Notes: generated by a model from the letters alone, not told the origin. DNA of 32,557 bases from Ignavibacteriales bacterium (GCA_003599395.1 QZJX01000011.1:1-32557), one strand, 5' to 3'. Shown: positions 8,784 through 20,989, counted from the stretch's first letter. Program-made: numbers and translations.

Positions 8784-9473
8784 CTAAGATATAGACTTGA
8801 AAGAATTAATTATAAGATCGAGCATAATTTCTTTATTAAAATCATTTTGTAGATGTTTCTGATTTATTTCAAGCTCAATTCCACAATAGCTTTGTGAACC
8901 GTACTTATTGCGCAGATAAGATGTGAAGCCGTCAGCAACTCCAAGATAAGGATAATTAAATCTAACTCTATACAAATTACTCAATCTGTTTATTTCTGCT
9001 TTCCAATTTTTACAAAAAACTTTTTCAAATGTTGATTTAGAGTCGTATAAAAGACCAATATCAGTCTTTCGAGTTACTCCATTTAATTCGCGCGTAAATG
9101 AATGAAATGAAATATGAATCACTTTATTATTTTGGTTAATTAAATCAACAATGCCGTTCTCAACTTTGTCACGATAAGGCTTATAGTAATTATTTATAAT
9201 TCTTTGTTTTGCTTCGTTATCTAATATTCTTGTGATTTCAGAAAAGAGATTTTGATGATGAAGGGAACGGTTCAACTCAATTAACAATCGTGATGTTTCC
9301 GAATAAAAACTTTCACCGTTAAAATGTTTTACAAATTCTTTGAAGATTTCTAAAATACCAATGTCGTAAGCGCGATGTGTTTTGAGGAGCGGGCGATGAG
9401 CTTTAAATAAATATTTATATTCATTCGGAATATTATTGCCGCCGTGTTCACATGTAAAAATATATTTTGTCAC
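8784..9473 (-). CDS. N-formylglutamate amidohydrolase-like protein
   Basis: A 229-aa protein of the N-formylglutamate amidohydrolase (FGase) family, zinc hydrolases related to carboxypeptidase-like folds. Visible signatures are TCEHGGNNIP at the N-terminus, LIELNRS near residue 68, HISFHSFTRE in the middle and GIELEINQKH near the end. The classical enzyme acts in histidine degradation, but no hut genes are present here. Its start is a GTG that overlaps the stop of the ligase gene before it in a 4-nt GTGA, which indicates translational coupling. In this operon it more plausibly hydrolyses an N-acyl-glutamyl or gamma-glutamyl amide produced by the two ligases. That role is inference. Confidence 0.85.
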   Translation of the reverse strand: MTKYIFTCEHGGNNIPNEYKYLFKAHRPLLKTHRAYDIGILEIFKEFVKHFNGESFYSETSRLLIELNRSLHHQNLFSEITRILDNEAKQRIINNYYKPYRDKVENGIVDLINQNNKVIHISFHSFTRELNGVTRKTDIGLLYDSKSTFEKVFCKNWKAEINRLSNLYRVRFNYPYLGVADGFTSYLRNKYGSQSYCGIELEINQKHLQNDFNKEIMLDLIINSFKSIS

Positions 9474-10708
9474 GGAACAAACATCTCGTTTGTAATTAAT
9501 GAATTGCGTAATTGTTTGTAAACATGAACGATGTTATCGTGTGAAAAATCATTTTTAATCGAGTTTAAAATTCGTGTAGCTAGCGACCCGTGATTAAGTA
9601 TAGTTTCAATCGGTCGAAATTGATTCTTGCTTAAAATAGAATCATCAAAAACTATGTTCGAAAAAATATGCTGCCATAATTCTTTTGCTGAACATTTATT
9701 TTTATTTATTCCAAATGCCCTAAGATATTTTCTGTTAGTTATAATTGAATTCTCGCCGGTTTTAATTGTTGATAATAATATTTCACTTAATTCATTTTCA
9801 TGAATAGATTTTTGTTCATTATAAGAGATATTATTTTCTCCTATCAACTCTTTCAAAACAAAAGAAAATAAACCGACCAAAGCTAAATCTGTTTTGGGGC
9901 ATTCCTGAATGTCAACAACTCTAATTTCGATTGTATTTCTATCAAATCTTGCAATAGCACCTCGAGAGTTCAGCCACTCATTTTGTAAAATTCCATTTTC
10001 ATCATAAGCAGCTATATCCTGATATATTCTATTGAAAATCTTTTCTTCATAATCTTCTCTAGTAAATACTTGTTCGGGAATTACTTTGCCTGTTATTGAA
10101 GGAATTCTAATCTGATTCTTTCTGTAAACTTCTAATCGTGCATCAAGAAATCCGGTATTCTTACTATCTAAAATTGGAGTACTGGCGGCAATGGCGGGAA
10201 TTATTGGAAGCAATAATCTTATTGCTGCGTGAAGCTTTCCAAATTCATTGTCGTCTGCAAACGGTAAATTAATATGTGTGCTTTGCAAGTTTGACCAGCC
10301 ATGTCCCCGACAATCAAATATTTTATTATAAGCTTCGTAAACTGTGTTATTATCATGCGGCCAAAGTTTTGTTTCGGTATCTGGATGATAGAATGGGTGA
10401 GCACCTGAAGGAAGTAAGACAGAATTATATTTTTCAAGAATTTTATTTATTCTTTTTACATTTTGTGAAAATTTATCACTTAGCTTATTAAGCAATTTTG
10501 CCGGACCGTTAGTTTTTAATTCTATTACATGCAGAACAATTTCGTTCGACCAGCCAATTTCTTCGTCTTCATAATCGGAAATATATTCACCGGTAACTTC
10601 TTTTATAACTTCATCTGTGATTGGATTTACCCTCAGTGTATCATTATCAACTATCATGTATTCAAGTTCAACGCCAAAACCCTGGAAAAGTCCGAGAGAT
10701 TCAATCAT
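9470..10708 (-). CDS. GCS2-family glutamate-cysteine ligase-like carboxylate-amine ligase
   Basis: A 412-aa enzyme of the GCS2 family (glutamine-synthetase fold), which uses ATP to join a carboxylate, classically the glutamate gamma-carboxyl, to an amine such as cysteine. The N-terminus has the metal-binding GFGVELEYMIVD (E14, E16). HPFYHPDTETKLWPHD, STHINLPF and NTIEIRVVDIQECPKTD further on match the core strands and the C-terminal Arg region of this family. The gene is joined to its upstream ligase gene by a 4-nt ATGA overlap and to the amidohydrolase gene by a GTGA overlap. The product could be a gamma-glutamyl compound. With no classical gshB nearby, the RimK-like partner could supply the second ligation. 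The true substrates are unknown. Confidence 0.87.
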   Translation of the reverse strand: MIESLGLFQGFGVELEYMIVDNDTLRVNPITDEVIKEVTGEYISDYEDEEIGWSNEIVLHVIELKTNGPAKLLNKLSDKFSQNVKRINKILEKYNSVLLPSGAHPFYHPDTETKLWPHDNNTVYEAYNKIFDCRGHGWSNLQSTHINLPFADDNEFGKLHAAIRLLLPIIPAIAASTPILDSKNTGFLDARLEVYRKNQIRIPSITGKVIPEQVFTREDYEEKIFNRIYQDIAAYDENGILQNEWLNSRGAIARFDRNTIEIRVVDIQECPKTDLALVGLFSFVLKELIGENNISYNEQKSIHENELSEILLSTIKTGENSIITNRKYLRAFGINKNKCSAKELWQHIFSNIVFDDSILSKNQFRPIETILNHGSLATRILNSIKNDFSHDNIVHVYKQLRNSLITNEMFVP

Positions 10709-12177
10709 AAATGAAGCTCCTTTACTTGACGAATATTTTCGAGTCTGTCTTTGAATGATTTCATAATTGTTAAATAAAGATGATCTTTCATAATTGCGTC
10801 TTCAACACCTGAATCAATACTTGGATTATCATTTACTTCAATTACAAAGACTTCATTGCCAATTTGTTTTATATCAACACCGTATAGTCCGTCTCCGATT
10901 TGATTTGCAGCTTTGAGAGCAGTTTTTAGTACCTTGTCAGGCACTTCGTAAATTGGAACAGTTTTATAATTACCGTATTGATCATCATCTTTCTTCTTCC
11001 AGTTATAGATTTGCCAATGATCTTTTGCCATAAAATATTTGCATGCGAATAAAGGTTGCTTATCTAAAATTCCGATTCTCCAATCAAAGTCAGAGTAAGT
11101 AAATTCTTGTGCGATAATTAAATCGGAAATATCAAGTAATCGATTGGCTTCTACTTTCAATTGTTCTTTGTTGTCAACTTTAACAACGCCCTGTGAAAAT
11201 GAACTGTCCGGCTGTTTCAATACTATAGGAAAGCCGAGAGCGTTTTCTAAAATCTCTCGATTATCTTTATGAACAATTATTGTTTTTGGTGCGGGCACTT
11301 TTGCCTTTGTTAAAATTTCAGCTAGGTAAACTTTATTCGTGCATTGTAAAATTGAATGCGGATCATCAATGACAACTAATCCTTCGGTAAATGCTCTTCT
11401 TGAAAATCTATATGTATGATGATTTACGGAGGTAGTTTCACGAATAAACAAGGCATCAAATTCCGGGATTCTACTGAAATCCTCTTTAGTGATTATCTCA
11501 CAACGGATTCCGACTTCATCACCGGCATCAATAAATTTATTTATTGCTTTTTTATCCGAAGGCGGTTCCTCATCGTTTGGATTTACTAAAATTGCCATGT
11601 CGTATTTAGCACGACTAATTTTTGCCGAATAAATTCTTTTCTTAGAAAAATATGTTTCGGCACATTCTTCTAAAAACGGTCTGTGTTTTTCCGGAACTTC
11701 ATTTACCGGAATAGGGGAGATGCTCTGTAGTATCCATTTTTTATTAAAAGAAAATGTTGCTCGAATTAGAGGCGCTTGGAATAAATTGTATAATTGTGAA
11801 GTTAACTTTTCATACTGATGAGCCATATTCTGTCCGAAGTAAATGCTCAATACAAACTCATCGGATTTAATTTTACCTAAACTTTTCTGAATTAGATCAT
11901 CTAAGTCGTCTGAAATAATTCTAACAATAGTTTGTGATTTAATATCTTGAATCGTAGATACGTTCGGAAATGCACGATGTCCTCTAGCTTCAGCAAGTAG
12001 TGAAACATAATAGCCTGTTGCTTGATATCGATAAGATCTGCATAAATTAAAAACACGTGCATTTTTTATCTCTGCAAATGCAGTTTCGGTTAAATACGAT
12101 TTTGCCGATACTACTTCCACATTATCTATGTTGAAATTCCAATCTTTCGGATTATTTACGATGACAAAACTTCGCAT
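10705..12177 (-). CDS. RLAN domain plus RimK-like ATP-grasp ligase
   Basis: A 490-aa amidoligase. The N-terminal half (about 1-190) fits the RLAN domain found in front of some RimK-like enzymes; FNLCRSYRYQATGYYVSLLAEARGH is characteristic, cited here as a recognised segment at about residues 43-67. The C-terminal half (about 285-480) is an ATP-grasp domain, with FPIVLKQPDSSFSQGVVKV as the ATP-binding loop region and E447/N449 in VIEVNDNPSID as Mg2+ ligands. RimK relatives add glutamate or other amino acids to peptide or protein C-termini. The gene starts 3 nt after the peptidase gene stop, with AAAGG upstream, and its end overlaps the GCS2 gene by 4 nt. The substrate, small molecule or protein, is not evident. 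Confidence 0.87.
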   Translation of the reverse strand: MRSFVIVNNPKDWNFNIDNVEVVSAKSYLTETAFAEIKNARVFNLCRSYRYQATGYYVSLLAEARGHRAFPNVSTIQDIKSQTIVRIISDDLDDLIQKSLGKIKSDEFVLSIYFGQNMAHQYEKLTSQLYNLFQAPLIRATFSFNKKWILQSISPIPVNEVPEKHRPFLEECAETYFSKKRIYSAKISRAKYDMAILVNPNDEEPPSDKKAINKFIDAGDEVGIRCEIITKEDFSRIPEFDALFIRETTSVNHHTYRFSRRAFTEGLVVIDDPHSILQCTNKVYLAEILTKAKVPAPKTIIVHKDNREILENALGFPIVLKQPDSSFSQGVVKVDNKEQLKVEANRLLDISDLIIAQEFTYSDFDWRIGILDKQPLFACKYFMAKDHWQIYNWKKKDDDQYGNYKTVPIYEVPDKVLKTALKAANQIGDGLYGVDIKQIGNEVFVIEVNDNPSIDSGVEDAIMKDHLYLTIMKSFKDRLENIRQVKELHL

Positions 12178-12180
12178 AAT

Positions 12181-12882
12181 TTATCTGCCTTTAGGATTTA
12201 TTATTAATAAGTTAGCGTCAAATGTTAGAATACCTAACATTATAGAATTTATCAACCGGCTGACCTTTACTGTGTAGTAATTGTTATGTGATACCGGGTT
12301 TTCTCTGTTTGGATCAGCAACAACAACCTTTCGGGTTTCCTCATCATAACCCGATAGAATTACGAAATGACCGGTTGGATAACCCCTAACATCATCATAA
12401 ACTGCTTTATTATTAACCCAACCTTCTCGCGCGCAATTGTATAAATAAGTTGCACTTAATCCGGTTAGGATAGGAAGTTTTTTTTCAAAAACTTTTTTAA
12501 ACAGAGATGGTGTTAAATTTGTAAACTCAAGGGTACCACCAAGATTAAGAAATTTAATGTAAGCGTCGCTTGCATTATGGAGTTTTTTACTTTTTTTATG
12601 TTTACGTTGCTCAGCAAGCTTTGCTGCTATATCAACTTTTTCATTGAACCAAGTTGGATCGAACATCGAAAGGTTATAAGTATAAATTTTTGCTTCATAA
12701 CCTCTTCTAAGTGCATGAAGTGCGAGCATTACTGCTAAGGTTCCGCCTTCTTCTAAATAGGAAATTTCCGAAATAACTTTTTGTAGTGAAATTTTATCAT
12801 TAAAGTAATGGTATACAGCATGAAGACTTGTCGGTCCGCAAGTTACATCATCGGGTTGAGGCATTATTTTGATAGGTATCAT
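12181..12882 (-). CDS. C39/papain-like cysteine peptidase family protein
   Basis: A 233-aa protein of the peptidase C39-like (papain fold) group. DDVTCGPTS carries the putative nucleophile C15, and Q9 sits six residues before it, as the oxyanion Gln does in papain. GHFVILSGYD supplies H172 and VVVADPN supplies D190. No signal peptide or membrane segment is present, so unlike bacteriocin transporter C39 domains it is cytoplasmic and standalone. It is the first gene of the amidoligase operon, with the RLAN/ATP-grasp gene 3 nt downstream. It may mature a precursor peptide, or transfer or hydrolyse a glutamyl bond. No ribosome binding site of note precedes the ATG, which is common in this phylum. 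Confidence 0.83.
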   Translation of the reverse strand: MIPIKIMPQPDDVTCGPTSLHAVYHYFNDKISLQKVISEISYLEEGGTLAVMLALHALRRGYEAKIYTYNLSMFDPTWFNEKVDIAAKLAEQRKHKKSKKLHNASDAYIKFLNLGGTLEFTNLTPSLFKKVFEKKLPILTGLSATYLYNCAREGWVNNKAVYDDVRGYPTGHFVILSGYDEETRKVVVADPNRENPVSHNNYYTVKVSRLINSIMLGILTFDANLLIINPKGR

Positions 12883-12978: not shown

Positions 12979-13009
12979 TTGCTAATTGAATTTCCCTCAT
13001 TTAATTTTG
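12979..13009 (+). promoter_or_regulatory. Bacteroidota-type promoter of the 72-aa gene
   Basis: TTG at 12979-12981, a 20-nt spacer, then TAATTTTG at 13002-13009. This is an exact match to TTG-N20-TAnnTTTG. The transcript would start near 13015, after an in-frame ATG at 13010, which favours translation from the ATG at 13034 with GAGGAA just upstream. Confidence 0.55.
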
Positions 13010-13033
13010 ATGTCGCATTTTTTTGAGGAATGC

Positions 13034-13252
13034 ATGGCCGAAGATGCTTTTGTTTACTATAAGTTCAAGAACCGTAAAACAGGCGAACTGATAGATGCGG
13101 TTTTAGCTTTTAAAAATGTTGAAGAACATGATCCAGCCTTAAAAAAATTCTTCGATATACATGAGTACAAAATTGTTGAAAAACGCCTGTCTCGTGTTGA
13201 AGAATTTGATAAGTGGCGTAAAGAAACTAAACCGTCACTTAAGAAGTACTGA
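13034..13252 (+). CDS. Small conserved-looking protein of unknown function (72 aa)
   Basis: A 72-aa charged, soluble protein. Its sequence suggests a compact fold: strand-like AFVYYKFKNRKTGELIDAVLAF, then a helix around HDPALKKFFDIH, then a basic and acidic helix ending KPSLKKY. I do not recognise the family. Starts at TTG 12986 or ATG 13010 are possible on frame alone. I chose ATG 13034 because a full-consensus promoter ends at 13009 and GAGGAA lies at 13025-13030. It is divergent from the amidoligase operon and precedes the Rrf2 gene by 72 nt, with a separate promoter in between. It could be a regulatory or accessory protein, but nothing in the sequence proves this. Confidence 0.6.
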   Translation: MAEDAFVYYKFKNRKTGELIDAVLAFKNVEEHDPALKKFFDIHEYKIVEKRLSRVEEFDKWRKETKPSLKKY

Positions 13253-13324: not shown

Positions 13325-13756
13325 ATGACGGTAATTTTCTCTAAAACATGCGAATTAGGGCTTCAAGCTGTTCTCTTTTTATCAATAAAAAAAGAAAAAA
13401 GAATTTTTACAGCTTCTGAAGTTTCAAAAGAATTAAAAGTGCCAAAGGAATACGTTTCTAAGGTAATGCAGATTCTAACCGAAAGCGGAATCATCGGTTC
13501 TAAAAAAGGGAAGAACGGCGGATTTTATCTCGCTAAAAGTCCAAGCAATATAAAACTAATCGATATTGTGCAAGCGATTGATGGTTTGGAACTCTTTAGT
13601 AATTGTGTGCTGGGTTTTCCCGGCTGCTCTTCGGATCATCCTTGTCCGGTTCATGACAAATGGGGAAAACTACGTGACGATGCCTACAAAATGCTTTCCA
13701 CAGAAACTCTCGAACAACTTAAAGAAAAAACACTTCATAAATTGGTTAGTTTATAG
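13325..13756 (+). CDS. Rrf2-family transcriptional regulator with Fe-S-type Cys/His motif
   Basis: A 143-aa Rrf2-family winged-helix regulator of the IscR/NsrR type. The N-terminal winged helix (about 1-75) includes SKTCELGLQAVLFL, the recognition-helix region VPKEYVSKVMQIL and the wing KKGKNGGFYLAK. The cluster-binding loop has C94, C101, C107 and H110. The C-x5-C-x2-H part matches the IscR spacing, while the first gap is one residue longer. Such proteins bind [2Fe-2S] or [4Fe-4S] clusters and respond to NO, Fe-S status or redox. A palindrome abuts its start codon and recurs before nirK, so an NO-sensing NsrR-like role is the best guess. An IscR- or CymR-like role is also possible. No Shine-Dalgarno is visible, so its mRNA leader may be very short. 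Confidence 0.9.
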   Translation: MTVIFSKTCELGLQAVLFLSIKKEKRIFTASEVSKELKVPKEYVSKVMQILTESGIIGSKKGKNGGFYLAKSPSNIKLIDIVQAIDGLELFSNCVLGFPGCSSDHPCPVHDKWGKLRDDAYKMLSTETLEQLKEKTLHKLVSL

Positions 13757-16026: not shown

Positions 16027-16767
16027 CTATTTGGAAATTACAATAATTAAGTTTGGGGATTTGTCATAATCAAATTTATCAAGGTTCACATTTCCGTAAT
16101 ATTTAGTTTTTGTAATTCCGATTTCTGTCAATAAATCATCAAGAAAATCTTTTGTGTAAGGGAAGATCTCGGTTGTAAATAGTTTCTTATCGGAAGAATT
16201 TTTCTTATCAAACGATAGTACATTAAAAAATACTTTTTCATTGCAGAAATCGTAAAATCTAATAAACTGTTTATTGTCTGATTCAGTGATGTTAACTATT
16301 CTTTCTTTTTGCTCTAGGACAGATGTGTAGTTCAATATTTGAATAACTGCTTTACCGGTTAGCTTCAACATTCTGAAAATTTTATTAATCGATTCCTCTA
16401 TCTCATCCCTAGAAATATTCGCAAAAGTATTTCCAAGAGATAAGATATAATCGAATGAATTGAAAAACGATTTATCGATTTCTACTACTTTTCTATTGTA
16501 GATCTCGACCTTAACATTGTGTTTCTTAAAATTTTCCTTAGCTTGCTCAAGCATTTGAGAGGAGGGTTCGAATGCTGTCACGTTAAATCCGGATTTAGCC
16601 AAAGCAATTGAATCAGCACCGCTGCCTGCACCAAGGTCGGCAACGGTTTTACCTGATTCTAATGAGAGGGTGCGAATGAAATCAATTTTATTTTTGATCT
16701 GTTTCTCGAGCGGAATCATTTCATCATATTGCTCGGCAATGTCGTTGTAGAAATTGGAGTTCGTCAT
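16027..16767 (-). CDS. Class I SAM-dependent methyltransferase
   Basis: A 246-aa methyltransferase with the Rossmann-type SAM fold. Motif I is VADLGAGSGADS (residues 42-53), followed by the acidic end of beta-2 (FEPS, 67-70) and FDYILSLGNTFANI as motif IV/post-motif region. The substrate is not evident; small molecules are likely, given the resemblance to UbiE/glycine-methyltransferase-like proteins. It is the last gene of the nitrite-reductase cluster. Its ATG overlaps the stop of the hemerythrin gene by one base, so co-translation is likely. Whether it works with the nitrosative-stress genes is unknown. Confidence 0.85.
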   Translation of the reverse strand: MTNSNFYNDIAEQYDEMIPLEKQIKNKIDFIRTLSLESGKTVADLGAGSGADSIALAKSGFNVTAFEPSSQMLEQAKENFKKHNVKVEIYNRKVVEIDKSFFNSFDYILSLGNTFANISRDEIEESINKIFRMLKLTGKAVIQILNYTSVLEQKERIVNITESDNKQFIRFYDFCNEKVFFNVLSFDKKNSSDKKLFTTEIFPYTKDFLDDLLTEIGITKTKYYGNVNLDKFDYDKSPNLIIVISK

Positions 16768-17213
16768 TATTTTACTGCGTCGATTTTTGAAACCAACTTG
16801 TCTAGTTCTTCTTCGCCAAATACTGTTTGAATCCGATCAAACAATTCACGCTCTTCTTTTCTGATATGCTGCTCGAGTATAAATCCAAGATCATTTAATA
16901 TTTCCTCTTTTTCATTGGAATTTTTTAACTGACCGATTTTGAATTCTATTTCTTCATGTTCGATTAAAAGCTCATCGATAAGTTCATCAATTTTTTCATC
17001 TTTGTTTCCGACAGCCGGGAAAAGAATATCTTCTTCGTTTTTGAAATGAAATTTTAATTCGTTCTCCCAGGCATTTATAACATAATTGGATTTGTCGTCA
17101 ATATCATTAGGTAAATTCTTATAAACCGGGGAATCCTTTTTTATTAACTGTGCTAATTTTAAACCGTGATGATGATCATGGGATAAACCGATTAATTTTT
17201 TGTGTCTTTTCAT
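16767..17213 (-). CDS. Hemerythrin HHE-domain protein
   Basis: A 148-aa four-helix hemerythrin-like protein that probably binds a di-iron centre. Candidate ligands are in LSHDHHHGLKLA near the N-terminus, FHFKNEEDILFP (about 54-65), EHEEIEF and EQHIRKEERELFD (about 113-125). Members sense or store O2, NO or iron. It starts inside the Ric/ScdA stop region (4-nt ATGA overlap), and its stop overlaps the methyltransferase ATG by one base, so it belongs to the same transcript. A role next to Ric in handling NO damage is a reasonable inference. Confidence 0.88.
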   Translation of the reverse strand: MKRHKKLIGLSHDHHHGLKLAQLIKKDSPVYKNLPNDIDDKSNYVINAWENELKFHFKNEEDILFPAVGNKDEKIDELIDELLIEHEEIEFKIGQLKNSNEKEEILNDLGFILEQHIRKEERELFDRIQTVFGEEELDKLVSKIDAVK

Positions 17214-17956
17214 AACGCTAATAGTTCTTTCTCTAATTCAATTGATTTTGGAAACAATATATTATTTTCTAAATGAACATGTATATGCAAATCTTTTTCA
17301 AAATCATGCAATTCTTGATAAGTTAATTGAAATGTGTTACATGCATCTGCAGGCGGAGTAAAATTGTTAGTCAATGTTCTTATTCTTTCCAATGCACTGC
17401 CGGCATTTGAGTGTTCAGCTTCCATTGATTCGATTGGATTTTTTACTGTCTTGAAACCACCGACTCTAGGTTTCTCATTAAACTTTTTGCAATCAACCAA
17501 GTAGCGTATTATATGAAAAAGTATCGTTTCTTCTTTATGCATGTGAGAATACATCTCTCCAGCAACATCCTCGAAAAGTGATTTTATTTCAATTAATTCA
17601 GGATATTTATTTCCGTGTTTAAATGCGACTTTTTCTAAATGAGGAATCATTTGAGGTATTGCATTTCTTACATACGAGTGATGATTATTGACAATATATT
17701 CTGTTAGAAATTTTAGATCCCAATTCTCATAGCGTTTCTCTTCTTGAACTCCAGATGATAAAACGGAATCCAATTCGGATAGTATTGTTTGAACACTTAC
17801 ATTTTTTTCGTCGCATGCTTCTTTAAGCGGACGATTTCCTTTACAACAAAAATCAATTCCGTGTTTTTCGAAAACATGAGCTGCTTTGATGTTAGATGTG
17901 AGAATATCTTTAACAATTATTTGGTTTGGATCTATTTGAAATGTGTCGGTAAACAT
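17210..17956 (-). CDS. ric: Iron-sulfur cluster repair di-iron protein Ric/ScdA/YtfE
   Basis: A 248-aa cytoplasmic di-iron protein that repairs Fe-S clusters damaged by NO or peroxide. The N-terminal ScdA_N (DUF542) domain holds HVFEKHGIDFCCKGNRPL with a vicinal Cys pair. The C-terminal hemerythrin-like domain supplies His/Glu ligands in NNHHSYVR, SHMHKEETILFH, EAEHSNAG and HVHLENNILFP. The length matches the family. AGGAG lies before the ATG, one base after the Sco stop codon. Its place behind nirK and Sco fits repair of damage by NO from nitrite reduction. The gene is called ric, scdA, ytfE or dnrN in different organisms. Confidence 0.94.
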   Translation of the reverse strand: MFTDTFQIDPNQIIVKDILTSNIKAAHVFEKHGIDFCCKGNRPLKEACDEKNVSVQTILSELDSVLSSGVQEEKRYENWDLKFLTEYIVNNHHSYVRNAIPQMIPHLEKVAFKHGNKYPELIEIKSLFEDVAGEMYSHMHKEETILFHIIRYLVDCKKFNEKPRVGGFKTVKNPIESMEAEHSNAGSALERIRTLTNNFTPPADACNTFQLTYQELHDFEKDLHIHVHLENNILFPKSIELEKELLAL

Positions 17957-17957
17957 T

Positions 17958-18632
17958 TTATACTCCTAGTTTAGTTTGATTCTTAATTACTTCTAATGTT
18001 TTTTGAATATCTTGATTAAGTCCTACTTGTTGATGAATTATTTCACCTTCTTTGTTAAGTATTGTTATAATATTAGAATGAGAAAATGAACCGTCATTTT
18101 CTTCTTTGTATCTAAATCCGGTTAACGCTGCTAAGTCATCAATATCACTTCGCTTACCGGTTAGTAATTGAAATCTAGCAAGATTTAAATTTTGGTTATC
18201 AGCAAATTCTTTTAGTCTTTCGGGTGTATCTCTATCGGGATCAATTGAAATTAGAGTGAACTGAACATTTCTTAATTCATCTTTCGTTAGTGCATCTTCA
18301 ATTCTTCTCATATCGTTTGCAAGAATCGGGCATGCATAAGTACAGTTTGCAAATATCATTGTGAAAATTTGCGTTTTACCTTTCAAGTCGCCAATGTGAA
18401 CATCATTGCCAAATTGATTTTTCCAATTTGAGTTTACTTGATAAACGGAGTTTTCAGAAAAGTTTGTCGATGCAGTTTCATCCATGTCTGTTGCACAACA
18501 TGATTCAGCCTTTGGTTTTTCCTTTTGAAGTTTTGCTTCAGCTAAATTTTCGGAAGTACCCGAGAATGCAATTAAAGTAACCGATACTGCGGCTGCTAAA
18601 AAGATTACTAGACTAATGACTAATTTTTTCAT
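17958..18632 (-). CDS. SCO1/SenC-family copper chaperone or thioredoxin-like protein
   Basis: A 224-aa thioredoxin-fold protein anchored by an N-terminal hydrophobic segment (about 4-23) and facing the periplasm. The Sco copper site is visible: C97 and C101 in FANCTYACP plus H185 in FSHSNIITIL. Sco proteins deliver Cu or reduce thiols, classically for the CuA centre of cytochrome oxidase. Here, directly behind nirK and the NirV-like gene, it more likely helps metallate copper nitrite reductase. An extra vicinal Cys pair (45-46, SCCATDMD) lies in the linker before the domain and could also bind copper. It begins 12 nt after the NirV-like gene. Confidence 0.9.
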   Translation of the reverse strand: MKKLVISLVIFLAAAVSVTLIAFSGTSENLAEAKLQKEKPKAESCCATDMDETASTNFSENSVYQVNSNWKNQFGNDVHIGDLKGKTQIFTMIFANCTYACPILANDMRRIEDALTKDELRNVQFTLISIDPDRDTPERLKEFADNQNLNLARFQLLTGKRSDIDDLAALTGFRYKEENDGSFSHSNIITILNKEGEIIHQQVGLNQDIQKTLEVIKNQTKLGV

Positions 18633-18644
18633 TTTATTCCTCTC

Positions 18645-19436
18645 TTATTTTAAATCCATTGCACATCTAAACCCTAGATTACGGGTTGTGTAATTTGCTT
18701 TTAAGCTGCTTCTGAATGCGAAACGCATAAAGGCAGGATAGTTTGTAAAATCTGTCGCACCAACCGATCCGTTTCCGCAGAACAAGTTTCTGTTAATACC
18801 ATTGCTTGCACGTGATTCACCGGTTACTAATGCATTGAAAAAATCTCTGGTCCATTCCCAAACCAATCCATGCATATCATGAACACCGTAATAGTTTTTA
18901 AAGACCGAGCCAACCGGTGGAAGAGATTCTGAATTTGGTTTTGAATACCAACTAATAATTCTTGATATGTATTTGTCATTCTTATAACCGTCGGCATGAT
19001 TTTCATCAGCCATTGCAGCTAACTCCCATTCGGCAACTGTTGGTAAACGTTTGTCATGAAATTCCGCATAAGCTTTTGCAGCAAACCAGCTTACGTTTAT
19101 CACTGGGGATTTGGGATTTACTTGCTGACCAAGTTTTTCGTCACTTTCCCAATGCATTAAATAATTTTGATCTGCAAAGAGCTTTGTAACATTTGATCTT
19201 TTCCATTTTGGATTTTTCTTAACAAATTCTAAAAACTGTTCATTTGTTACCGGGTATTTATCGATCAAGAATGATTCTACTTTTACACTTTGATCGGTTG
19301 TATCATCAACATAAAGCGGTGTATAGATTCCTGCCGGAATAATTGACATTTCTTGATTTTGGAATCCCGGTTTGTTTGCAACAAGCAGTTGAGCAAAAAA
19401 TATTATTGCGATCGATATTTTAATTAACTTTTTCAT
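18645..19436 (-). CDS. nirV: NirV-like formylglycine-generating-enzyme-family protein
   Basis: A 263-aa exported protein (signal peptide about residues 1-20, ending VANKPG) with an FGE-sulfatase (SUMF1) domain. Characteristic segments are FLIDKYPVTNEQFLEFV, PVINVSWFAAKAYAEFHDKRLPT (cited as a recognised region, about 105-127), EWELAAMADE and GLVWEWTRDFF, ending NLGFRCAMD. In several denitrifiers such a protein, NirV, lies beside nirK and is thought to help nitrite-reductase maturation or nitrosative tolerance. Two nt separate it from the nirK stop, which supports this name. It is unlikely to be a true formylglycine enzyme because no sulfatase gene is near. The nirV symbol rests mainly on context. 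Confidence 0.83.
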   Translation of the reverse strand: MKKLIKISIAIIFFAQLLVANKPGFQNQEMSIIPAGIYTPLYVDDTTDQSVKVESFLIDKYPVTNEQFLEFVKKNPKWKRSNVTKLFADQNYLMHWESDEKLGQQVNPKSPVINVSWFAAKAYAEFHDKRLPTVAEWELAAMADENHADGYKNDKYISRIISWYSKPNSESLPPVGSVFKNYYGVHDMHGLVWEWTRDFFNALVTGESRASNGINRNLFCGNGSVGATDFTNYPAFMRFAFRSSLKANYTTRNLGFRCAMDLK

Positions 19437-19438
19437 AT

Positions 19439-20989
19439 TTACTTTCTTGTTAAGGCATTGCTATTTTTATATTTCTTTACATCTTCAACTGTTACTGTTT
19501 CATTTGATTTATTGATTTCTTTATATACATAAGTAAGTACGGCTGCCATTTGTGTATCTGTTAATTGCTGCGGGGGCATAACGTTGTTATACTTTTTACC
19601 GTTTACAGTAATTTCACCGTTCATACCGTTTGCAACTGCGGCAATCATTCCGGCTTTACCGTTTTTCTTAATCCAGTCGGAATCTTTAATCGGTGGAAAT
19701 ACATTTGCCATTCCGGATCCGTCCATCATATGGCAAGCCGAGCATGTTGATTGATATAATTGTTTTCCCATTTTTGCGAGATCATCATTTGTGGAAGATG
19801 AATTTTCACTCTTCGATTCGTTATTAGCTGGTGGAGTTAAACTTGAATAATCTTGTTCAGATGCTTCGTTTGCAAATTGGGGAACATAATTTTCTTTAGT
19901 ATTATTATCTCTGTAAGTCCCCGTTGTAGGGTCGATTGAGCCGAAATCTTTTTTATTTCCGCTGTAAAGTTCGTCTGCAGTTTTGTGTGAAAAAATTATT
20001 TCATCCTCAGGACCGGTTACGGCAATTTTACCAATTGCTCCTTTATTGAATGCTCTGAAAATTGAATGGTCCACAAGAATGAATTCACCAGGAACATCAA
20101 CTTGAAACTCAACAATTGCGGAGCCGCCTGCCGGCACTAAGGTTGTCTGCACATTTTTTTGATTTCTTGTAGTGCCGCCTTCTTGATAAACAACGTCAAA
20201 TATTTCACCAATAACATGGAAGGATGAGACTAAATTTGGACCGCCATTTCCAACAAATAATCTTACTTTCTCACCAACTTTAGCTCTTAAAGCTTTATCA
20301 CCAACCATTGAGCCAACCGAACCGTTGAAAACAACATAGTCGGGATTCTCTTCTAATGCTTTTTCCATACTGAATGGTTGATAACCTTCTTCACCGTATT
20401 TGCCTTCGGTATAAAATTCACTTTGCATCACATAGTATTCTCTATCAACCGGAGGTAATCCCTCTTTTGGTTCTACTAGGATTAATCCATACATACCATT
20501 TGCAATATGTAAACCAACAGGAGCGGTTGCACAGTGATAAACATAAAGTCCGGGATTAAGAACTTTGAAATTGAATACTGAAGTATGTCCCGGAGTAGTG
20601 AAGGATGCCTCTGCGCCGCCACCAGGGCCGGTAACAGCGTGAAGATCAATATTATGTGGAAGTTTACTTGAAGGGTGGTTGTGTAAGTGAAATTCAACTT
20701 CATCACCTTCGCGAACTCTAATAAAACTTCCTGGTACTTCACCGCCGAATGTCCAAAATGTATATTCGACTCCATCGGAAAGTTTACCGACAAGTTCTAG
20801 AACTTCCAATTCAATTTTTACTTTTGCCGGATAATCACGAGTTATCGGCGGGGGAACATGTGGCGCTTGCGTTAATTTTGCAGTAATTACTTCTTGAACT
20901 TCTTGTGATTTGCTTTCATCACACGACGATAATATAAATGCTGCTATTGTCAGTATTAAAAAAGCAGTTATATATTTTATTTTTTTCAT
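19439..20989 (-). CDS. nirK: Copper nitrite reductase fused to a C-terminal cytochrome c
   Basis: A 516-aa exported lipoprotein-like enzyme (lipobox LSSC, C23) that reduces nitrite to NO in the periplasm. Two cupredoxin domains carry the type 1 copper ligands H112, C153, H161 and M166, and the type 2 ligands H117, H152 and H308. The catalytic residues D115 and H258 are present in [10 protein letters not shown] and SSFHVIGE. A linker rich in Ser/Asn precedes a fused cytochrome c domain (about 403-495) with heme motif CSACH (416-420) and M471 as probable axial ligand. The fusion supplies electrons directly. AAGGAGAGG precedes the ATG. A 20-bp operator-like element lies 22 nt upstream. Nitric oxide reductase genes are not in the window. 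Confidence 0.96.

Follow-up and report, generated by a model that had tools for sequence, protein, structure and literature searches.

What would a bacterium make with two unrelated ATP-dependent amide ligases and two hydrolases encoded side by side? This question is raised by four genes in a 32,557-nt stretch of DNA (here called the window) that comes from a member of the Melioribacteraceae (Ignavibacteria). ORF calling on the window showed that the four minus-strand genes form a tight operon, read from position 12882 to 8784. Their products match C39_2, RLAN, RimK, GCS2 and FGase above the Pfam gathering cut-offs, in agreement with the layout, the gene identities and the combination of enzymes proposed in an initial annotation. 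The features are as follows:

12181..12882, minus strand: gene 1, C39-like papain-fold cysteine peptidase/transpeptidase, 233 aa (Pfam C39_2, E 3.7e-10)
10705..12177, minus strand: RLAN + RimK-type ATP-grasp amide ligase, 490 aa (PF14401, 1e-49; PF08443, 3.4e-9)
11665..12105, minus strand: RLAN domain, residues 25-171 of the ligase (Pfam match)
10738..11610, minus strand: pre-ATP-grasp and ATP-grasp domains, about residues 190-480 of the ligase (VIA-align fold matches)
9470..10708, minus strand: GCS2-family carboxylate-amine ligase, divergent and YbdK-like, 412 aa, ATG start (Pfam GCS2, E 4.1e-24)
8784..9473, minus strand: FGase-family (N-formylglutamate amidohydrolase-like) metallohydrolase, 229 aa, GTG start (Pfam FGase, E 9e-22)

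The C39 and RLAN genes are separated by 3 nt, and 4-nt overlaps join RLAN to GCS2 (10705-10708) and GCS2 to FGase (9470-9473), exactly the spacing that had been read before. The nearest named locus belongs to a MAG titled Melioribacter roseus, with 90% of the ligase sequence shared; the operon is likewise present in a complete genome of the same species.

The ligase is predicted with good overall quality (AlphaFold2 model, pLDDT 89.4), and its ATP-grasp part (residues 190-480) matches the folds of ArgX (Z 28.6), LysX (28.4), RimK (26.9) and GshB (1gsa; 22.8) in VIA-align. K282, K321, D435, E447 and N451 are invariant among 111 relatives. Despite this fold the protein reaches only 59.9 bits against the 143.4-bit cut-off of the RimK subfamily (TIGR00768), and Ngg (TIGR03103, cut-off 569 bits) is not among the best 25 of its 30 NCBIfam matches. 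The RLAN domain, with conserved residues Y28, N44, Y49, Y56, Y57, S59 and R65, probably serves in acceptor binding; none of the matches listed in the fold search with the ligase model covered this part. That RLAN is a duplicated pre-ATP-grasp domain was considered, as the order of secondary-structure elements is suggestive, and was rejected on a non-significant hhalign comparison (probability 0.2%, E 0.29).

The GCS2 protein lies well above the superfamily threshold (PF04107, 85.9 vs gathering 21 bits), and its profile retrieves YbdK (1r8g, E 0.0018). It stays at 54.3 bits against the 176.4 bits required for the YbdK type (TIGR02050), and the GshA equivalogs score still lower relative to their cut-offs. 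Eight residues, E14, E16, E56, E63, H145, R249, E261 and R263, are invariant in 92 relatives. The FGase protein likewise belongs to its superfamily (PF05013, 78.7 vs gathering 28.9 bits), and its profile retrieves Atu2144 (2odf, E 3e-33), with E9, H10, H33, D37, H120, H124 and R135 conserved in 70 relatives. Its score against HutG (TIGR02017) is 13.6 bits for a cut-off of 278.75, and it has no hut linkage; in the complete genome of the same species it is the sole PF05013 gene.

The C39 protein (AlphaFold2 model, mean pLDDT 92.7) has the Q-x5-C, H and D set in a papain fold, which places it among the C39 peptidase-like proteins, and the residues picked out in the initial annotation (Q9, C15, H172 and D190) proved invariant in 60 full-length relatives. 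The model superimposes on the peptide-leader C39 protease of PCAT (Z 15.4, rmsd 2.3, 134 residues) and on the glutathione complex of Alr0975, a glutathione-cleaving phytochelatin-synthase homologue (Z 15.1, rmsd 2.7, 159 residues). Because both matches are equally good, the fold leaves undecided whether the protein is a peptidase or a transpeptidase. As a stand-alone protein of 233 aa with no linked ABC transporter or precursor peptide it does not correspond to the leader peptidase of a bacteriocin exporter, and a Pfam search reporting matches up to E 0.1 did not list the phytochelatin family for it. For all four proteins the curated NCBIfam enzyme models (HutG, GshA/YbdK, RimK) have cut-offs far above the scores obtained; since the catalytic residues are conserved, all four look like active enzymes, judged by their sequences.

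Are the four genes inherited as one unit? Among 80 named loci picked by ligase similarity, the order C39-RLAN-GCS2-FGase recurs in Ignavibacteria, Cytophagia (Rufibacter, Pontibacter, Adhaeribacter), Marinilabiliales (Geofilum, Alkaliflexus) and Fibrobacter as well as in one Desulfobulbaceae, one Leptospiraceae and one Legionellales MAG, and the Flavobacteriia loci are without the C39 gene. A plasmid of an isolate Legionella carries the consecutive annotations RimK family protein, glutamate-cysteine ligase family protein and N-formylglutamate amidohydrolase. In an independent sample of 296 Bacteroidota genomes, which were not selected by the ligase, RLAN is found in 35. All 24 genomes with the GCS2 protein have it next to RLAN, and the same holds for all 22 with the C39 protein, every one of which is inside the GCS2-positive set; 16 of the 18 genomes with FGase homologues have them linked to RLAN-GCS2. 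Pairwise co-occurrence is accordingly strong (P 3e-31 to 5e-15, hypergeometric over the 296 genomes, uncorrected for shared ancestry), distances in the four protein trees are correlated (r 0.70-0.85, for which shared ancestry accounts in part), and the median RLAN-GCS2 spacing is -4 nt (n=117 loci). Far from being rarely adjacent elsewhere, which would have spoken against a functional unit, the genes keep their linkage across clades, and the earlier view that they act together is thus backed by co-occurrence, overlaps and correlated trees. FGase and C39 are accessory, as they are absent from eight and two of the 24 GCS2-type genomes, respectively. Among the hosts are cultivable bacteria of marine and soil habitats (Flavobacteriia, Rufibacter, Pontibacter), rumen Fibrobacter and Desulfobacterota.

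No fifth partner accompanies the set. Clusters of flanking genes within ±8 kb at the named loci reflect clade-specific synteny only, so that the conserved fifth partner which the initial annotation had suggested looking for was not found, and small ORFs of 15-90 aa are not conserved beyond close relatives. Neighbourhood checks also bore out its statement that the operon has neither a precursor peptide nor a transporter or hut gene next to it; the HutH gene of the host lies on a separate contig.

Several loci deviate individually. At three single loci another gene sits directly 3′ of GCS2, where FGase is expected: a methyltransferase (L118:10594-11271), an MFS transporter (L119:3583-4818) and a DctP-type solute-binding protein (L057:10824-12653), which may hint at product tailoring or transport. 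Two Bacteroidota genomes with no RLAN match have FGase homologues of 38% identity in a different context (L158:7476-8189 and L159:7089-7802). One Desulfobulbaceae MAG (G333) has two RLAN-GCS2-C39 loci, L152 and L169, for which two products or mixed binning are possible.

In the window, an 88-aa ORF (12986-13252, plus strand) is divergent from the operon and is conserved only in Melioribacteraceae (7 loci, beside the operon); it has no Pfam match and a weak YerC/TrpR-like match (E 0.05), and is possibly a local regulator. Next to it, an Rrf2-type regulator (13325-13756, plus strand) lies near a conserved minus-strand block (16027-20989) that is kept in locus L001 and encodes a methyltransferase, hemerythrin, a ScdA/RIC-like iron-sulfur repair protein, SCO1, an FGE-sulfatase-like protein and a multicopper oxidase with cytochrome c (nitrite-reductase-like).

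The best clue to the mechanism is the replacement of GCS2 by a GNAT, which the initial annotation had missed. Eleven Bacteroidota RLAN ligases have no GCS2 partner; ten of these carry a GNAT domain fused to the N-terminus, and at the remaining locus the GNAT is part of a neighbouring GNAT-C39 (DUF3335) protein. At this locus (L133:5568-8189) RLAN, ATP-grasp and GNAT-C39 are three separate genes, and RLAN is therefore an independent module. A second sample of 247 genomes from the phylum of a Desulfobulbaceae MAG, with the centre genome counted, contains 11 genomes with RLAN, eight of them with GCS2, one with a fused and two with an adjacent GNAT. Taken together, the 46 RLAN genomes of both samples divide into 32 with GCS2 and 14 with a fused or adjacent GNAT; none has both and none has neither. 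In line with this, a profile of these GNATs matches nothing closer than 3.5 kb to a GCS2-type RLAN gene; matches next to RLAN do occur in Azospirillum, Tistrella and Aeromonas. The sole locus without an adjacent GCS2 or GNAT is that of Pseudomonas aeruginosa.

In a tree of 79 ligases, where L072 counts as a GNAT fusion and L136 and L138 as loci with a neighbouring GNAT ORF, ten GNAT-type sequences form a fully supported group within the GCS2-bearing part and the other GNAT-type sequences fall outside. Monophyly of the GNAT type is rejected (p-AU 0.00015, on a quick tree with long branches), and the association with GNAT has therefore been gained or lost more than once. The replacing GNATs score nearest RimI, one of them just over the RimI cut-off (86.7 vs 86.4 bits). 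The either-or pattern and its scattered placement in the tree suggest that GCS2 and GNAT are alternative N-capping modules for one C-terminal extension step carried out by the ATP-grasp ligase. What is exchanged is the partner, which does not imply the same chemistry, and the swap could mean different products.

Our preferred reading, to which we give a probability of roughly 0.4, is that the operon is a dedicated pathway for a small N-capped peptide that is built from both ends. We infer its substrates, step order and product, and the equivalence of the swapped modules, as follows. The GCS2 ligase would spend ATP on coupling the amine of an amino-acid-like substrate to a carboxylate, which is most probably the gamma-carboxyl group of Glu, and so give an N-capped intermediate. 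The RLAN/ATP-grasp ligase would then activate the free C-terminal carboxylate and add an amino acid, in the manner of GshB, RimK and LysX, while RLAN would help to keep the acceptor in place. Finally, maturation, recycling or limitation of the product would fall to the FGase-like zinc amidohydrolase and the C39-like thiol enzyme, which could cut or exchange the amide bonds. The GNAT-type systems would attach an acetyl cap instead, like that of acetyl-Gln-Gln amide (NAGGN).

An N-capped peptide is proposed because GNAT, from acetyl-CoA, and GCS2, from a carboxylic acid at the cost of ATP, both acylate an amine beside a carboxylate-extending ligase, as do the enzymes of NAGGN and of glutathione (GshA for the gamma-glutamyl cap, then GshB). 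The model is favoured by the co-inheritance of the genes, the either-or partners, the folds of the ligase and of the C39 protein, and the lack of a precursor gene and of a conserved fifth partner within ±8 kb. It is weakened by the accessory nature of FGase and C39, by the closest folds, RimK, LysX and ArgX, which act on proteins, by the similarity of the GNATs to RimI, a protein N-acetyltransferase, and by the P. aeruginosa RLAN gene with neither partner adjacent. More tentatively still, the pathway could be a widespread one, present in many bacterial phyla, in which a single RLAN/ATP-grasp ligase works with interchangeable caps, either GCS2 with FGase for decapping or GNAT, to give two versions of one peptide. 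The either-or rule would predict an acid-capped, probably gamma-glutamyl peptide in GCS2-form bacteria and its acetylated counterpart in GNAT-form bacteria. The product could be a protein tag, or else a basic compound related to stress or osmosis; either would represent new biochemistry.

The P. aeruginosa RLAN ligase (L134:7908-9497) follows ggt, a glutamate ABC transporter, pagP and an SDR gene, with an asparaginase nearby; from this gene order we take it to be PA1345. A study of the Cpx envelope-stress response lists PA1345 as a "hypothetical ATP-binding protein" with a CpxR box at -69 (PMC12802237). This box would hint at a role in envelope stress, a hint that transfers only weakly to the window since the P. 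aeruginosa locus has neither GCS2 nor GNAT.

In the main rival reading a protein, rather than a small molecule, is the acceptor, in line with the protein C-terminus tag considered in the initial annotation. The RLAN ligase would then lengthen a ribosomally synthesised protein at its C-terminus, much as RimK extends ribosomal protein S6 and LysX and ArgX extend the carrier LysW; GCS2 would attach another residue or a branch, and the tag would be removed by C39 and FGase. The ArgX/LysX and RimK folds and the RimI-like GNATs that weaken the preferred reading count in favour of this one, C39 enzymes do cleave peptides, and RimK/RimB offers a precedent for a ligase with a trimming peptidase (PMC12239564). 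We consider it less likely than the preferred reading. Against it, in none of the clades is an acceptor protein or a small ORF linked to the genes, and the ligase falls far under the RimK subfamily cut-off. The characterised GCS2 enzymes use, to our knowledge, small molecules.

A glutathione-like thiol is a cysteine-specific case of the N-capped peptide model: GCS2 would form gamma-Glu-Cys or an analogue, the ATP-grasp ligase would add a third residue and C39 would cleave or polymerise the product. The order of GCS2, ATP-grasp and papain-fold genes parallels GshA, GshB and phytochelatin synthase, the folds agree with those of glutathione-bound Alr0975 and GshB (see the Z scores above), and GshB above cut-off is found nowhere else in the genomes. 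However, the host has BshC and is thus a likely bacillithiol maker, none of the genes linked across clades relates to thiols, disulfides or metals, the GCS2 protein is far under the GshA and EgtA-type cut-offs, and the C39 protein is not recognised as a phytochelatin synthase by Pfam. A thiol product is thus improbable; of the initial interpretation, a unit of ligases and hydrolases is supported and a thiol cofactor in particular is not, given the host's BshC, a GshB that nowhere exceeds its cut-off and the lack of any linked thiol-specific gene.

Ordinary catabolism, with FGase as the host N-formylglutamate deformylase of histidine degradation and its neighbours as amino-acid enzymes by chance, is very improbable although HutH is present in the genomes and the window FGase is their only PF05013 gene, since HutH is on another contig and the histidine role of FGase itself is disfavoured by its HutG score and by the RLAN-GCS2 linkage of 16 of the 18 homologues; some hut pathways run without an FGase.

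How does the operon compare with known systems? Gene neighbourhoods of RLAN/RimK-like peptide ligases were reportedly predicted by Iyer, Abhiman, Burroughs and Aravind in 2009, and the window operon shares with them both the fusion of RLAN to a RimK-like ATP-grasp domain and the adjoining further peptide ligases and hydrolases. It thus belongs to a predicted, uncharacterised kind of RLAN peptide-ligase operon. We know of no product or assay for such neighbourhoods, and a literature search for RLAN, PF14401, DUF3335 and the gene set returned no relevant study and no defined product, as had been stated initially. With the glutathione enzymes GshA and GshB and with Alr0975 the operon has in common, at the level of folds, a glutamate-type carboxylate-amine ligase, an ATP-grasp ligase and a papain-fold enzyme; it differs in that its proteins stay below the respective family cut-offs, RLAN and FGase are additional, and the host has a bacillithiol gene.

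RimK/RimB and RloC/RloA operons encode a ligase together with an aspartic peptidase that undoes or trims its product (PMC12239564). The pairing of a RimK-fold ATP-grasp ligase with a peptidase is common to the window operon, which in contrast has C39 and FGase instead of aspartic peptidases and includes GCS2; moreover, the target of RimK is a ribosomal protein. For NAGGN, the GNAT/ATP-grasp protein Ngg (TIGR03103) acetylates Gln and joins a second Gln, and the set is completed by AsnO and an M42 peptidase (PMC8070244). The GNAT-RLAN-ATP-grasp form shares with it the acetyl cap, the ATP-grasp ligation and a hydrolase in the operon. NAGGN synthesis has no RLAN, the RLAN systems have no AsnO amidotransferase, and the window operon carries GCS2 rather than GNAT. 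Set beside these systems, the quantified either-or rule and the model of an N-capped peptide may be new.
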